Source: Clostridiaceae bacterium
GTDB taxonomy: Bacteria > Bacillota > Clostridia > Tissierellales > Sporanaerobacteraceae
DNA: 64,000 nt
Reading direction: 5' to 3'
NCBI GenBank assembly: GCA_019391515.1
Contig: JAHXQP010000029.1
Coordinates: 32,411 to 96,410, forward strand
The position numbers and the translations under genes were made by a program. The notes under the pieces were generated by a model, which worked only from the letters and a program-made list of their open reading frames with translations, searched no databases and was not told the origin of the DNA. Numbering within the stretch: the first letter of the stretch is position 1; each line of letters opens with the position of its first letter. Shown here piece by piece: positions 55,958 to 63,504 of the stretch.

Positions 55958-56734
55958 CTATTTTATCTTTTGTGCTAAAACCCCTGCACCTATGGCTCCA
56001 GCATATCTTGCCATAGGATTTGTCTTTACTGGACTTTTAAGCTTTTCTGATAAACTTCTAACTATATAGTCACATTCACATAGTCCACCTGTGAGATAAT
56101 AGTTTGTACCTTCTGAATGCTTATTGCATAGGCTAGCCACTTTGCTTATTATTGAATCAACTATAGCATAAGCTATATCCTCTTTTTTCTCTCCTCTGCC
56201 AATAAGACTTATTACTTCTGATTCTGCAAAAACTGTACACATAGAACTTATGGAAATATCGCCACCAGTTTCAGCTAAATCACAGAGAGTATCTATATCT
56301 ACACCTAAAGTATTTGCCATAATCTCCAAAAATCTACCTGTACCTGCAGAACATTTATCATTCATTAAAAAATCCACTATCATTCCGTTTTCTACAGTTA
56401 TAACCTTTGTGTCCTGTCCTCCTATGTCTATTACAGTGCAATCTTCCCCTGTAAGATAAGCAGCCCCTTTTCCATGACAAGTTATTTCTGTAATAGTTTT
56501 GTGGGCATAAGGGACAGAAACCCTTCCATATCCTGTAGCTACTACTTTCATTTCTTCTTCTTTTATTCCCTTAGATATAATTTTTTCTTTTATTGTATTG
56601 GCTGTTTCTATACTACTCCAGCCTGTAGGCACAACAAAAGCATCTATTAGCTTATCATTTTCAAATAAAGCTGTTTTAGCTGCTGTAGATCCAATATCAA
56701 CCCCAGCATAATACATATTCCTATCCCTCCTCAA
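55958..56734 (-). CDS. Acyl-CoA dehydratase activase / double-cubane reductase activator (BadF/HgdC-type ASKHA ATPase)
   Basis: YYAGVDIGSTAAKTALFE, VIDIGGQDTKVI, NDKCSAGTGRFLEIMA, GGDISISSMCTVFAESEVISLI. Confidence 0.93.
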   Translation of the reverse strand: MRRDRNMYYAGVDIGSTAAKTALFENDKLIDAFVVPTGWSSIETANTIKEKIISKGIKEEEMKVVATGYGRVSVPYAHKTITEITCHGKGAAYLTGEDCTVIDIGGQDTKVITVENGMIVDFLMNDKCSAGTGRFLEIMANTLGVDIDTLCDLAETGGDISISSMCTVFAESEVISLIGRGEKKEDIAYAIVDSIISKVASLCNKHSEGTNYYLTGGLCECDYIVRSLSEKLKSPVKTNPMARYAGAIGAGVLAQKIK

Positions 56735-56750
56735 AACAAATGCAAAATAA

Positions 56751-57917
56751 TTATAACATCTCTATAAAGGCTGCTACTCTAGTCTTCAATTGCCCTTCAT
56801 CTGCCTGCGAATAGTCTGTTTCTATACTCATATATGGTATATCTTTCTCCTCTGTTACAAATTCTTTAATCCTACGAGTCTCTACATTATAAGTATGGCA
56901 AGCTTGTAAAATAACATCTATTACACCATCAACTTTGTATTCATCTATTAATTCAGACATTAGTTCAATTCTATTATCATTTGGTGCCATAACTGAACAT
57001 CCAACATTTAAATATTTTTCAGCTATTGCCTCAACTGGATCCTTAGTTTCATCTACTAAACGTGATTTTTCCTTTATTCCACTACAGTTTTCGTAGCATA
57101 CAACTACTGCTCCATTTGATTCTATAATAGGTATAAGTTTATCTGCAACTCCCCCCATTGGGCAACCTGTTATTAAAATTCTTGGAGCATCTTCTTCTAC
57201 CTTTCTAACCCCATTTGCATGTTCTTCTTTTAACTGTTCTACCATATCCATTATCTTTTTGTTTTGCTCATCCTTATCAAATGTAAATGAAGCACCATGT
57301 AGAACAGTGTGAAGTTCCATTCCAGTTATAGGAGGAGGACATATTTTACTTAGAGAATACAATTCTTTCAGTGCAATTCTTTCTTCGTTGCATTTCTTTA
57401 TAGCTTTTTTTAAATCATCATCTGTTATCTTAACATTAAATTCTTCTTCTAGTCTTTCTTTCAATATAATAATCTCATTTTTCCAAACTGAAAGTGCATG
57501 TTCTCTATCTGTAGCTTGAGGAAGTTGCATAACATGCATTGGTTTTATCTGATTTAAATATTCGTACATCTTTTTCTTTCCATCACAAGTTGTTTCCCCT
57601 ACAATTATATCTGAAAAGTATGTAAAAGGACATTTATCTGTTAGTGCAAAACCATAACTTGATTTTATAAGAGGACATAAATTCTTGGGCAAGTCTCTTT
57701 CAGCATCTGGTATTGTTTCATCACTCATACCACATAATGAAATTGGATGAGCTCCTGCAGCATATATAACTTCTATAGGAGTGAAAGTACAGAAAATACC
57801 TACTATATGTTCTCCTTCATCTTTATAATCTTTAACCTTTATAAAGGAATTTCTTCTTGCCTCACTAAAATCATCAAATGCTTTTGGTAAGTTATTCATT
57901 TTTATTTCCCCTTTCAT
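56751..57917 (-). CDS. Double-cubane-cluster-type anaerobic reductase (2-hydroxyacyl-CoA dehydratase D-component family, single-subunit type)
   Basis: Conserved Cys: NLCPLIKSSYGF, DKCPF, GETTCDGKKKMYEYL, YENCSG, VGCSVMAPND, QACHTYNVETRRI; next to its ASKHA activase. Confidence 0.85.
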   Translation of the reverse strand: MKGEIKMNNLPKAFDDFSEARRNSFIKVKDYKDEGEHIVGIFCTFTPIEVIYAAGAHPISLCGMSDETIPDAERDLPKNLCPLIKSSYGFALTDKCPFTYFSDIIVGETTCDGKKKMYEYLNQIKPMHVMQLPQATDREHALSVWKNEIIILKERLEEEFNVKITDDDLKKAIKKCNEERIALKELYSLSKICPPPITGMELHTVLHGASFTFDKDEQNKKIMDMVEQLKEEHANGVRKVEEDAPRILITGCPMGGVADKLIPIIESNGAVVVCYENCSGIKEKSRLVDETKDPVEAIAEKYLNVGCSVMAPNDNRIELMSELIDEYKVDGVIDVILQACHTYNVETRRIKEFVTEEKDIPYMSIETDYSQADEGQLKTRVAAFIEML

Positions 57918-57941: not shown

Positions 57942-58817
57942 CTATAAAAACTCTATAGACCAAAGAGTTGAACCTTTAAGTTCTAAAGCTGTTCTTTTTA
58001 TACAATTGTGGCCTATTATCCTTATATCTTTTTTGTTTTCCAAAACATGATCTATGGCTTGTCCATAAGTTATCTTACTTTCAAATTTGATAGGATAAGA
58101 TTTAATATATCCCATATTCTGAAAAACCGCAGATGTCTTTCCACAAATATGCATTATACTCCCATCCAACTCACTTTCCATACATTTTAATATATTATAA
58201 GTAGCTCTTCCACTAAACTCCTTATATACTCTTGGGCCAACAATATCTAAAGAGCCTACTGGATCTCCATAAGATATTATATTTGCTCCTCTATTTATTC
58301 CTTCCTTTATATACTTTATAATACTGTCTTCCATAACATTTAAAATTTCATAAATCATTTTCTTGTTTTTTCTTATAGCTTTATAAAATATCCTTGAATC
58401 TACTAGAGAAGTTATAATGGTAAAAGGCCCTTCTACATTTAGAACTACAGTTTCTCCCTGTGAATGCAATATTTCTACAGCTTTTAAAACTTCATTTATT
58501 CTTTTCCTGTTTAAATCTATTTCTTCAATTTCCATTAATTCATCTATAGAATTGAAAGCATAACTTTCCACTCTAGGGCCTGCTTTAGCATCTCCTAGTT
58601 TAATATTTCCTCCTAATGCTTCTGCTTCTACAGTATTGCAAAATGGAACCCTACATAAATTATCTTTTTTATACTCCTTTAGTTCTTTCGACAGAGTTGC
58701 TATATATTCAGCTTTAGTATGAACTTCTGGAAAGCTCAATCCTGTTTTTTTCACTATATCCCCAGGTATTTCTTCCATTTTGTCACTTATACACTTAAAA
58801 TCCATGATTTCACTCAT
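57942..58817 (-). CDS. UroD/MtaA-family methyltransferase-like protein, short N-terminus
   Basis: VPFCNTVEAEALGG, MHICGKTSA and C-terminal GHNC match the HXC...C metal site of MtaA-type proteins. Confidence 0.85.
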   Translation of the reverse strand: MSEIMDFKCISDKMEEIPGDIVKKTGLSFPEVHTKAEYIATLSKELKEYKKDNLCRVPFCNTVEAEALGGNIKLGDAKAGPRVESYAFNSIDELMEIEEIDLNRKRINEVLKAVEILHSQGETVVLNVEGPFTIITSLVDSRIFYKAIRKNKKMIYEILNVMEDSIIKYIKEGINRGANIISYGDPVGSLDIVGPRVYKEFSGRATYNILKCMESELDGSIMHICGKTSAVFQNMGYIKSYPIKFESKITYGQAIDHVLENKKDIRIIGHNCIKRTALELKGSTLWSIEFL

Positions 58818-58834
58818 TTTATCACCTATCTATA

Positions 58835-60646
58835 TTAGTTAAAAGTTAAACATTTAGTAAATAGCTTTTCATAGCCTTCTTTTGTAGATAGCTCAAAGTG
58901 CTCTATATCCTTAGCTATGTCCTCCATTTCCTTTCTTGTTCCCTTAGATAATAAACATATCATAGCTCCAGTTTTAGATGAGTTTCCTATATAATTTATC
59001 TTGTCCTTCAAATTTTCTGGTATAATCCCTACACCAGTCAAACTACTTATCTTTAAATGTCTACCAAACTGTCCTGCTATAACTATACTGTCAAGGTCTT
59101 CCATACCCATATCCATAAAATCTAAAAGTGCATAAAATCCAGAAGAAATAGCACCTTTAGCTAATTGAACTTGTCTAATATCTTCTTGGGTTATAGATAT
59201 TGTTTCATCTCCATTTTTATATAAAATAACTTTCCTTTTCTTGCCTTCTTCCACTAGATGTTCAGCTAATATATAACGTTCTTCTTTGTCTAAATCCTCT
59301 TTTCTTTTCAACCTGCCAGACTTCTTTATAATCCCTTTTTTATGGAGGTCAGCTATAGCTTCTAATATCCCACTTCCACATATTCCCATGGGCTCTACAT
59401 CTCCAATTACTTGAAGTGCAACTCCATCTTCGTTAAATTGTATGCCTTCAATAGCTCCATCTGCCGCTCTCATGCCACAACTTATATTTGCCCCTTCTAG
59501 TGCTGGACCAGCAGCACAGGAACATGAGACAAGCTTTCCACCTTTAGACAATAGCATTTCCCCATTTGTTCCAATATCAATGAAAAATACATTGTCTTTA
59601 GTATCTTTTAAATTAGCTACTACAGCTCCAGCTACGATATCTGCACCAATGAAACTAGATACTCCTGGCAAGCAATATAGTCTTCCAAATGGTGATATTT
59701 TAAGACCTATGCTCTTGGCCCATAAGTTTTTTTCTTTTGAAAAAATTGTAGCATAAGGCGATTTCCCTATAGTGTTGGTTTCAATCCCCAATAGTAAATG
59801 CATCATAGTAGCATTAGCTCCTACAGCTATTTCATAGACATTTTGAATATCTATACCATTTTTATTACATAGATTTTCTAATAGGGAGTTTATGCAATCT
59901 ACTATAGCTTCTTGTAATAGACAGAGACCATTATCCTTTCTTTTTACAAAATCTATACGGGATAATACATCAAGACCATATTCTTTCTGAGGATTTATAG
60001 AAGTTTCTGTTCCAATTTCTTTACCAGTATTTAAATCTATAAGGGATACAACTACTGTAGTAGTTCCAATATCTACTGCAGCCCCATATAATTTCTTCTT
60101 TGTATCTCCAGATTCTACACCTATTAATTCATCTTCATAATATAGTAAAGTAACTTTTCCTCCGTTATTTACATTAGCCAAAGCCTTTAAAATTTCAGTA
60201 TTATTATGATATAATTCTTCACCTATAGATTTTTCTAAAACCTTCTCGTAGGAAAGATTGTTTTTCAGAGTAGGCTTTTCCAAAGCAATAACTTCTTTAT
60301 AGATAATAGGATTTAATTCTGCATCAGGAATGTAGCCATCTGATAATGCCTTATAATTTTTCTCTTCTTTATTTAAAAATTTTACACATATATGACCCTT
60401 AGGATAGACAAAACAACTAAGCCTTATATTTTTTTCTAGTTCTTTCTTTGAAAGATATTTTAGCTCCTCTTCTGTAGGCTCTTCTAGTTTTCCCTTAATT
60501 ATTTGCACCTTGCATTTTCCGCAATAGCCTTTTCCACCACAAGGACTTTCTATAATTTCTCCACTATCTTGCAATATATCAAGAAGGCTTTCACCTTCTT
60601 GATAACTATAGGATATACCTTTGTTGTATATTTCCAACATACTCAT
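58835..60646 (-). CDS. ASKHA corrinoid activation protein with N-terminal 2Fe-2S ferredoxin domain (RACo-like, DUF4445)
   Basis: ESPCGGKGYCGKCKVQIIKG ... RLSCFVYP; AAVDIGTTTVVVSLIDL; FFIDIGTNGEMLL; CSCAAGPALEGANISCGMRAADGAIE. Confidence 0.92.
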   Translation of the reverse strand: MSMLEIYNKGISYSYQEGESLLDILQDSGEIIESPCGGKGYCGKCKVQIIKGKLEEPTEEELKYLSKKELEKNIRLSCFVYPKGHICVKFLNKEEKNYKALSDGYIPDAELNPIIYKEVIALEKPTLKNNLSYEKVLEKSIGEELYHNNTEILKALANVNNGGKVTLLYYEDELIGVESGDTKKKLYGAAVDIGTTTVVVSLIDLNTGKEIGTETSINPQKEYGLDVLSRIDFVKRKDNGLCLLQEAIVDCINSLLENLCNKNGIDIQNVYEIAVGANATMMHLLLGIETNTIGKSPYATIFSKEKNLWAKSIGLKISPFGRLYCLPGVSSFIGADIVAGAVVANLKDTKDNVFFIDIGTNGEMLLSKGGKLVSCSCAAGPALEGANISCGMRAADGAIEGIQFNEDGVALQVIGDVEPMGICGSGILEAIADLHKKGIIKKSGRLKRKEDLDKEERYILAEHLVEEGKKRKVILYKNGDETISITQEDIRQVQLAKGAISSGFYALLDFMDMGMEDLDSIVIAGQFGRHLKISSLTGVGIIPENLKDKINYIGNSSKTGAMICLLSKGTRKEMEDIAKDIEHFELSTKEGYEKLFTKCLTFN

Positions 60647-60662
60647 AAATTCTTCACTCCAT

Positions 60663-61721
60663 CTATGATGATTTTAAAACTATATTTTTTGATGTTGATT
60701 CCTTTGCAACCTCTACCATTGACTGTATATTTTCTAATTTAGTTCTTGGACCTATACCACAGGCTGGTGATAATATGTCCACTCCACTTTTTATACAGCC
60801 TTTAGCAAGATTTTCCACAATATCTGGGGAGCTTTTTTCAATGGCTAAGGTACTTACATTTCCCATAATAGCTTTGTTGTTCACATTATTTGCTACTTCT
60901 TTCACACTAGCTATAGAATCAAAACTTATAACATCACTGTCAAGGGAATTAAGTATTCCATATACACTTTTTAGCTTTCCACATATATGGATTATAGTTC
61001 CTCCTGGAACATCCTCTTTAACTGCATTGACTATTTTGTTTAAATAAGGAGCAGCAAATTCTTTAAATAGCTTTGGTCCTAAAATTTCTCCCGTACCACT
61101 AGGATCTGAAATAGATAATATATCTGCTCCAGCTTGTATCTGAGCCTTAGCAAAACTTATAAGATTTTCCGTAACAAATTCCATAAATTCATGGGCTTCT
61201 TTAGGTTTTCTTCTAAGCTCCTTATAATAATCTACTGGTTCCATCAAAGAAGAGGCTGTACTTACAGGCCCTACTAAATTGGCTATAATAGGAATATCTG
61301 AACTTTCACTTTTAAGTATCTTTATAGCATCTAAAACTACTTTAGTTCTCCCTTTGGTTAAGTCTAATTCTTTGAGCTTGTTCCACTCTGTAACAGAGTT
61401 TATCGGATATTCTATAACTCTAGGCTCATTTATCTTAGTACCTAAACCTACAATAGCCCCCATAGATTCTGCTTCTACAGTCATACAAAAAGGTACTCCA
61501 AAATTTTCAAAACCTCCATTTTCGCAAACCCCCATAGTAAGCTTTGCCATCATCTCTGGATCCTTATGGGCCTCTGGCCACTCTACTTTAGTAATATCCA
61601 TAATATCTTCTATAATCATATTCATCATACCGCCGGGACAAATACATGGAGGCCGATCTACTTTTTCCCTTTTTATTGCACAAAATAGTCTTTCTTTTTT
61701 AGATAAAGAATTTATAGGCAT
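60663..61721 (-). CDS. UroD/MtaA-family methylcobamide methyltransferase-like protein
   Basis: VDRPPCICPGGMMN, VPFCMTVEAESMG, IIHICGKL, SPACGIGPRT. Confidence 0.88.
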   Translation of the reverse strand: MPINSLSKKERLFCAIKREKVDRPPCICPGGMMNMIIEDIMDITKVEWPEAHKDPEMMAKLTMGVCENGGFENFGVPFCMTVEAESMGAIVGLGTKINEPRVIEYPINSVTEWNKLKELDLTKGRTKVVLDAIKILKSESSDIPIIANLVGPVSTASSLMEPVDYYKELRRKPKEAHEFMEFVTENLISFAKAQIQAGADILSISDPSGTGEILGPKLFKEFAAPYLNKIVNAVKEDVPGGTIIHICGKLKSVYGILNSLDSDVISFDSIASVKEVANNVNNKAIMGNVSTLAIEKSSPDIVENLAKGCIKSGVDILSPACGIGPRTKLENIQSMVEVAKESTSKNIVLKSS

Positions 61722-61748: not shown

Positions 61749-62840
61749 TTATTCATATCTATTAAAACTCATTAATTCTTCTAGTTTTTCATCTGTAATT
61801 GGCCATCCAATCTCCCTAGCTGTATCCAACATAGCATCAATATTTTCTATAGGTGTTTCTACTGGAAGTCCGCAGCCTGACATAATGCCATATCCTTTAG
61901 GAGACTTATATCCATCTTTTACGCACTGTAAAGTAGCCTTCCTAACATCTTCCTTAGTACCTGCATACATTATAGAAGAAGGGTCCACATTTCCCATTAT
62001 CTTTATTCTATCTCCTACAGTTTCCGTACAGTTTTTAAGGCTTGCAATATTATCTATACTTAAGGCCCCTACGCTTATATCTACTACATCTTCCCATATA
62101 CCATCTGTTTTTCCACATATATGTATTGAAGTTCCAGAGCCTTTAGACTTAATAAAATCTACAAATCTTTTTAAATATGGCTTTGAAAATTCTCTAAAAT
62201 GTTTTGGACTCACTACAGTACAAGAAGACATAGGCTCTGCAATACTTATGCCTATTCCCTGTTTAATAGTTGCATCTGCAAATCTTATACAGTTTTCTAA
62301 TGAAATTTCGCATAATCTATGAACCGATTCAGGATCTTTTATCATCATCTTTGTCATAGTTTCTACGCCAATTAAAAAGAAAGCAGAAGTGAAAGGTCCC
62401 ACAACTAAGGCTGTACAAGGAACTTCTTCTCCTATTTCATCTTGCACATATTTCATAGCTTCAATATGGATTGGCAATCTCGCATCCTTGTATGGATCTA
62501 TAGGCTCTAATTTAGATATTTCCGAAATATCTTTTATAGCTGGTTCTAAAAGATCCACTGTTTCATCCTCTGGATATTTCATCTTAGCACCCATAGCTTC
62601 TGCAATTATAAAAAGGTCAGTAAATACCTTTGCACCATCTCCACCAAACCTTCTATGGGTTGCAATAACTGCATCGGCTAAAGTTCTAGCACTATGGTTA
62701 AACTCTGAAATCTTACATCCTAAAACCCTTGCAATACCATTAGATAAATTAGGATTGCACTGAATTCTATCTACATCTTCTCCTTTTGAAAAAGCAACAG
62801 CCCTTTCCATAGGTGTCATTTCATCTTTAAACAGCGACAT
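61749..62840 (-). CDS. UroD/MtaA-family methyltransferase-like protein, divergent paralog
   Basis: MTPMERAVAFSKGEDVDRIQ, SIHICGKTDGIWED, GIMSGCGLPVETP; overlaps corrinoid-protein gene by 14 bp. Confidence 0.88.
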   Translation of the reverse strand: MSLFKDEMTPMERAVAFSKGEDVDRIQCNPNLSNGIARVLGCKISEFNHSARTLADAVIATHRRFGGDGAKVFTDLFIIAEAMGAKMKYPEDETVDLLEPAIKDISEISKLEPIDPYKDARLPIHIEAMKYVQDEIGEEVPCTALVVGPFTSAFFLIGVETMTKMMIKDPESVHRLCEISLENCIRFADATIKQGIGISIAEPMSSCTVVSPKHFREFSKPYLKRFVDFIKSKGSGTSIHICGKTDGIWEDVVDISVGALSIDNIASLKNCTETVGDRIKIMGNVDPSSIMYAGTKEDVRKATLQCVKDGYKSPKGYGIMSGCGLPVETPIENIDAMLDTAREIGWPITDEKLEELMSFNRYE

Positions 62841-63504
62841 TCATCTTCCCCCTTACTAAATCTTTAGCTAATCTTGCAGCCCTCGAAGCTTCCGGTGCAT
62901 ATCCATCTGCACCTATTTTGTCTGCAAAACTTTGTGATATTGGTCCTCCTCCAACCATAACTACTACATCATCCCTCATACCTTCTTCTTTCAATAAATT
63001 AACCACTATCTCCATATTGTCCATAGTGGTCGTCATTAAAGTTGAAAGACCTATTAATTTAGCTCCCAGTTCCTTCGCTTTGTTAATAAATTCACCAGGT
63101 GGCACATCTCTTCCCAAATCATATACTTCAAACCCTGTAGTTTCTAACATGATTTTAAATAGATTTTTGCCTATATCATGGGTGTCTCCTTCTACTACTC
63201 CAACTACCGCTTTATACTTTTCTTCAGTTTCATCATATTTTAAATGAGGTTTCAAAACGTCCATACCTGCATACATGGCATCTGAACACATTAGAAGTTC
63301 TGGAATATAGTATTCCTCTTCTTCATAAAGCTTACCTGCCTCATCCATTCCAGCAGCTAAGCCATTAGAAATCCCTTCATATGCATCATATCCGCTTTCT
63401 ATGAAATCGTTTGCAATTTCTATAGTATCATCTTCTTCCATATCCACTACAGATTCAGCCAAATCCTTTAAAAGCTTTTCCTTTACATTGGACATATTTA
63501 TCAA
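62827..63504 (-). CDS. Corrinoid (B12-binding) methyltransferase-associated protein
   Basis: VGVVEGDTHDIGKNLFKIMLETTGFEVYDLGRDVPP (DXHXXG), VGGGPISQSFADKIGADGYAPEA. Confidence 0.95.
   Translation of the reverse strand: MINMSNVKEKLLKDLAESVVDMEEDDTIEIANDFIESGYDAYEGISNGLAAGMDEAGKLYEEEEYYIPELLMCSDAMYAGMDVLKPHLKYDETEEKYKAVVGVVEGDTHDIGKNLFKIMLETTGFEVYDLGRDVPPGEFINKAKELGAKLIGLSTLMTTTMDNMEIVVNLLKEEGMRDDVVVMVGGGPISQSFADKIGADGYAPEASRAARLAKDLVRGKMNVAV

Follow-up and report, generated by a model that had tools for sequence, protein, structure and literature searches.

The reductase gene pair and its operon

The analyzed window, a stretch of 64,000 nucleotides from the genome of a Clostridiaceae bacterium, carries a seven-gene operon on the minus strand with intergenic gaps of no more than 27 nt. 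The genes encode, in this order, a corrinoid protein, MlpA, MlpB, RACo, MlpT, the double-cubane cluster protein DCCP and its activase DCCP-R. The contig ends 496 bases past the corrinoid gene, which limits the view of the promoter side of the operon. An Rfam scan of the region from 52 to 64 kb yielded no cobalamin riboswitch or other RNA.

The first gene of the operon (62827–63504, minus strand) encodes a B12-binding methyl-carrier protein with PF02310 and PF02607 domains. Its scores of 212 and 208 bits on the pyl_corrinoid and MtbC-type profiles are just under or below the cut-off. The mlpA gene (61749–62840, minus strand) encodes an MtaA-like methyltransferase, which scores 295 bits on the URO-D profile and finds its best PDB match in MtaA (4AY7, 129 bits). 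The product of mlpB (60663–61721, minus strand) is an MtaA/MtbA-like methyltransferase with 456 bits on PRK06252 (cut-off 244) and 191 bits to MtaA 4AY7. The labels Mlp2-like for MlpA and Mlp3-like for MlpB rest on family scores. The His-Cys-Cys zinc site, in the form His-x-Cys ... Cys, is kept in both proteins. The fourth gene (58835–60646, minus strand) encodes a RACo-type corrinoid reductive activase with a 2Fe-2S and an ASKHA part (RACo_C_ter 253 bits, Raco_middle 196 bits, Fer2 39 bits). The mlpT gene (57942–58817, minus strand) encodes a short, C-terminally reduced MtaA-like protein of 291 amino acids (URO-D 111 bits), which is probably Mlp1-like. MlpT keeps the His-x-Cys motif, and a further cysteine lies elsewhere in its shortened C terminus. 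A frameshift was considered as the cause of the short MlpT and rejected, because related clusters encode a similar short form. In two relatives (loci L041 and L055) the zinc-site histidine has been lost. In the close relative Anaerosalibacter massiliensis, MlpT and DCCP are separated by an additional MlpA paralogue (63%; L004:8756-9847), which is absent from the window.

The last two genes of the operon encode DCCP (56751–57917, minus strand, 388 amino acids) and DCCP-R (55958–56734, minus strand, 258 amino acids). The sequence-only reading had placed a double-cubane-type reductase and its activase here within a corrinoid methyltransferase cluster, and this placement is confirmed. Both genes were found at these positions, and all six cysteine motifs that it had quoted are present in the 388-amino-acid protein. 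DCCP-R was recognized as an ASKHA ATPase activase by TIGR00241 (248 bits) and PF01869 (185 bits). Two cysteines were seen in it, in NDKCSAGTGRF and in SSMCTVFAESEV, the places at which activases of this family are known to bind their cluster.

DCCP is a single-subunit double-cubane reductase

The product of the gene at 56751–57917 scores 551 bits on the curated family profile NF040772, which has a cut-off of 350. It does not reach the equivalog scores of the dehydratases (HadC 131 against 700 bits, HadB 32 against 750 bits) or of the benzoyl-CoA reductases (BzdN 93 against 453.8 bits, BcrC 58 against 421 bits). In the PDB sequence search the top match was the DCCP of C. hydrogenoformans with 268 bits (6ENO/7YYL), with BzdN at 85 and HadC at 65 bits. 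The structure prediction (pLDDT 88) gave a fold that agrees best with the DCCP structures 6ENO and 7YZM (TM 0.90). In the phylogenetic tree, a placement that the sequence-only reading had proposed in advance, the window protein falls among the DCCPs and apart from the dehydratases; the tree was built with FastTree and contains some long branches, so only the placement of proteins and the number of label changes were read from it, and its fine branching was left aside. Judged from profiles, tree and predicted fold, the protein is a single-subunit double-cubane reductase with an adjoining ASKHA activase, and not a dehydratase, which bears out the assignment made from the letters.

The possibility that the window protein is a half-enzyme, whose partner in a 2-hydroxyacyl-CoA dehydratase or a benzoyl-CoA reductase is encoded elsewhere in the genome, draws on the family memberships: PF06050 and the ASKHA activase family are common to DCCPs and dehydratases. 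As had been claimed, no gene for a dehydratase second subunit, a CoA-transferase or a CoA-ligase is located nearby; one flank of the pair holds MFS, ArsR, CPBP-type and ABC genes and the other is the methyltransferase cluster. Nor did the search of the assembled genome with PF06050 reveal a second subunit of the HadB/HgdA type. The only remaining matches are two weak DUF2229-type genes, neighbors on contig C25, which have an activase of their own. A grouping with a dehydratase subunit that has a partner elsewhere was thus looked for in the tree and in the genome and not seen. Furthermore, HadC, which keeps C81, C111 and C340, has no counterparts of C43, C278 and C307 in the alignment. The missing partner subunit, the tree placement and the cysteine pattern led us to reject the half-enzyme reading, whose probability is close to nil. 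The C25 locus itself (L085:6996-10066), whose three genes encode the two DUF2229/HGD-D-type proteins and their ASKHA activase, represents a separate, uncharacterized activase system.

Eight cysteines are invariant in the alignment of 117 DCCPs: C43, C62, C81, C96, C111, C278, C307 and C340. In BzdN, six irons of the double cubane are bound by cysteines (PMC11971306). Only six of the eight places hold a cysteine there, and the same six of the window protein, C43, C81, C111, C278, C307 and C340, align with 6ENO and BzdN. These six are probably the ligands of the predicted [8Fe-9S] cluster. C96, in the DKCPF motif, is invariant in DCCPs but absent from BzdN, so it is a DCCP hallmark and probably not a ligand, and C43, located in GIFCTFTP, is probably the sixth ligand instead. 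Five of the six probable ligands had been named in the sequence-only reading; by the BzdN alignment it listed C96 wrongly and missed C43.

The closest characterized counterpart is the DCCP:DCCP-R system of C. hydrogenoformans (6ENO, 7YYL, 7YZM). Its DCCP resembles the window protein in the NF040772 match (504 bits), the eight conserved cysteines, the fold and the ASKHA partner. The two proteins differ in sequence (38% identical), and in the tree the C. hydrogenoformans protein belongs to a "long" clade (about 420 amino acids), whereas the window protein belongs to a "short" clade (about 385 amino acids). Acetylene, azide and hydrazine are reduced in vitro by the C. hydrogenoformans DCCP, with unclear relevance (PMC11971306). 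The benzoyl-CoA reductase BzdN/BzdO shares the aligned places of its double-cubane cysteines with the window DCCP. It differs in that BzdN works together with a second subunit, BzdO, and on CoA substrates, and the window protein stays at 93 bits against its 454-bit cut-off.

The operon as a type 1 mlp gene cluster

Kountz and Balskus described 367 mlp clusters and, for those of type 1, proposed a role in methyl-selenium salvage (PMC10418091). According to their study, selenide is methylated by the Mlp2 of C. ljungdahlii with methylcobalamin as the methyl donor, and the legend of their Fig. 5 names DCCP and DCCPR as putative selenium genes of such clusters (PMC10418091). Like the type 1 clusters of that study, some of which include DCCP and DCCPR, the window operon contains a corrinoid protein, several Mlp proteins with the His-Cys-Cys site, and RACo. 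It differs from them in that no further selenium gene was found inside the operon. Type 1 clusters are defined as having no tetrahydrofolate methylase within 20 kb; none was recognized among the neighbors in the window, where the contig ends shortly past the corrinoid gene. From its gene content, the operon agrees with the type 1 mlp gene clusters in the main points of their definition and appears to be a further example of them, in an Anaerosalibacter-like genome. The SdmABC system for dimethylselenide demethylation in Methanococcus likewise combines a corrinoid protein with UroD-type methyltransferases. When selenium is scarce, homologues of this system are induced (PMC11097638); a DCCP is not mentioned in the passages considered here.

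Distribution of DCCP and selD

The occurrence of DCCP was studied in a sample of 313 genomes of Clostridia, where proteins above the NF040772 cut-off were counted. DCCP was found in 36 genomes (26 genera), selD in 73 and selA in 49. All 36 genomes with DCCP have selD over its cut-off, compared with 37 of the 277 others (Fisher p = 4e-27, with relatedness ignored). Seven families (f2, f4, f26, f36, f49, f53 and f64) contain members both with and without selD, and in these DCCP occurs solely in the selD-positive members. As a control, the 62 genomes having only sub-cut-off HGD-D paralogues were considered, and selD is present in 17 of them. Six DCCP genomes have selD and no selA, which indicates that the tie of DCCP is to SelD rather than to selenocysteine. 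The gene selD was also found in 20 of 20 named genomes with DCCP; these span several phyla, among them Gammaproteobacteria, Desulfobacterota, Spirochaetes and Fusobacteria. Among 14 control genomes DCCP occurs in two, E. coli and M. jannaschii, and these are the same two that have selD. Across the sampled genomes DCCP is strictly dependent on SelD, and selenium, not the corrinoid, is the constant. The reverse does not hold: 37 selD-positive Clostridia have no DCCP, so that DCCP is dispensable for selenium use in general.

Among 149 Gammaproteobacteria, two proteins from genomes without selD exceed the NF040772 cut-off by a small margin (356 and 362 bits); in the tree they group apart, and they have no C96. 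Proteins from loci L120–L123, L125 and L126 represent a separate DCCP-like clade, in which the six putative ligands are kept, C96 is absent and no tie to selD is seen.

The genome of the window has complete selenocysteine machinery on contig C29, with selD, selA, a selB-like gene and tRNA-Sec. The selD gene (G000:C29:55060-56094) contains an in-frame UGA at the active-site position SSGUAAK and is followed by selA and the selB-like gene. Its product is therefore likely to be a selenoprotein itself.

Gene neighborhoods point in the same direction. DCCP and DCCPR follow selD, selA and selB at locus L139. At loci L135–L137 they follow YedF and SelD without selA, in the company of molybdenum-hydroxylase genes. 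At locus L138 the order is DCCP, DCCPR, SelD, LysR, a Sec-lyase-like enzyme, YedF and a Se/S carrier, and at locus L133 an mlp cluster is followed by two DCCPs, a Se/S carrier and DCCPR. For the 80 nearest DCCPs the surrounding 10 kb were inspected: 22 loci have a match to csd/Sec-lyase, YedF, SelD or a Se/S carrier, where csd alone is not selenium-specific, and 6 loci have a corrinoid protein together with RACo. DUF3343, YedE, YedF and a LysR regulator were named as selenium genes by Lin et al., whose paper has genes of the dehydratase and activase types solely in a STRING table (PMC5322559).

E. coli K-12 carries a comparable operon, yjiM-yjiL-ytiA (L149, NC_000913, 4563668-4565850), which encodes a DCCP, an activase and a PF11823 Se/S carrier. 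The product of yjiM scores 531 bits on NF040772. The operon shares the DCCP and activase with the window; methyltransferase genes are not among the neighbors in the stretch examined there. All three genes are uncharacterized in E. coli K-12, and the annotation of ytiA says no more than that. In RNA-seq of an E. coli ygfI mutant, yjiM and yjiL changed by −6.9 and −5.3 log2 (PMC9068703). This change fits co-expression with formate hydrogenlyase and carries little weight, as many anaerobic genes shift too.

Proposed role of DCCP and DCCP-R

The pattern of DCCP relatives, which occur only in selenium-using bacteria, argues for selenium rather than vitamin B12 chemistry as the job of the protein. 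We consider it quite likely that DCCP and DCCP-R are a reductase pair of the selenium trait, which is here built into a type 1 mlp operon for methyl-selenium. For the operon as a whole, the probable task is the demethylation of selenium compounds. The Mlp methyltransferases would take a methyl group from a methylated selenium compound and pass it to the Co(I) of the corrinoid protein, and RACo with ATP would restore corrinoid that had become Co(II). DCCP-R would hydrolyze ATP and drive electrons into the predicted [8Fe-9S] cluster of DCCP. DCCP, in turn, would reduce a selenium-bearing small molecule and thereby help to supply selenide to SelD for the formation of selenophosphate. We infer the substrate and the order of the steps, and this exact assignment is tentative, with the odds rather against it.

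The corrinoid context had been regarded as a clue to the substrate of the reductase, and the pair could be an extra donor of electrons of very low potential that takes the corrinoid protein from Co(II) to Co(I), an acceptor which the sequence-only reading had suggested for the assays. The shared operon with its short gaps is in accordance with this reading. Mlp3-like proteins were found in 18 of the 313 Clostridia, 11 with selD and 7 without it. In selD-positive genomes, DCCP occurs in 10 of 11 with Mlp3 and in 26 of 62 without (p = 0.003, relatedness not removed). The mlp label changes seven times on the DCCP tree, at least six of these changes being forced by well-supported branches, which shows that the mlp–DCCP pairing was gained or lost several times. 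The link of DCCP to mlp is real but secondary. None of the seven selD-negative mlp genomes has a DCCP over the cut-off, and type 1 Mlp3 is present in only 10 of the 36 DCCP genomes, leaving 26 without such a match. RACo, the established kind of corrinoid activase, already fills the role of activator in the operon, which is why DCCP is not read as one. The clue stands insofar as the pair lies in a corrinoid operon, but it is weaker than the selenium tie (10 of 36 against 36 of 36). In view of RACo and the selD pattern, the corrinoid is improbable as the main acceptor of DCCP.

The reactions of the C. hydrogenoformans DCCP in vitro suggest a general or detoxifying reductase of small molecules such as azide, hydrazine and acetylene; selenium users would then carry it because of a lifestyle they have in common or through linked transfer. 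Although almost all Clostridia live anaerobically, the sampled DCCPs occur only in the selD-positive ones, and the HGD-D paralogues do not display such strictness. DCCP also repeatedly shares an operon with selD, selAB, Sec lyase, YedF and the Se/S carrier. We regard this explanation as unlikely. Slightly different is the proposal that DCCP and DCCP-R are the selenium counterpart of MarHDK, an ATP-driven eight-iron reductase cleaving the C–Se bonds of organoselenium compounds. MarHDK is a nitrogenase-like methylthio-alkane reductase, for which a role in sulfur-type mlp clusters has been proposed. Apart from DCCPs and the nitrogenase group, few proteins are known to carry an eight-iron cluster. 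Full-length nitrogenase-like matches were found in 6 of 7 selD-negative and 2 of 11 selD-positive mlp-bearing Clostridia, a comparison confounded by descent and by true nitrogenases. Such genes are complementary to DCCP in mlp genomes, which fits C–Se cleavage, and we give this specific reaction a small chance.

The occurrence of DCCP in mlp clusters and its selenium reading were known already (PMC10418091), and the window, as a further example, is close to explained. The present analysis adds the strict dependence on selD with its controls, the correction of the ligands, the division of DCCPs into clades and, as a test bed, the operon of E. coli; the selD link may be partly known. The dependence on SelD and the yjiM-yjiL-ytiA operon narrow the search for the substrate of DCCP to selenium chemistry, and E. 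coli is tractable for a direct test. At locus L133 (10368-14130), and also at L013, L016 and L018, a "short" DCCP of 382 amino acids and a "long" one of about 420 amino acids are encoded in tandem with one shared activase, and these might form a heterodimer.
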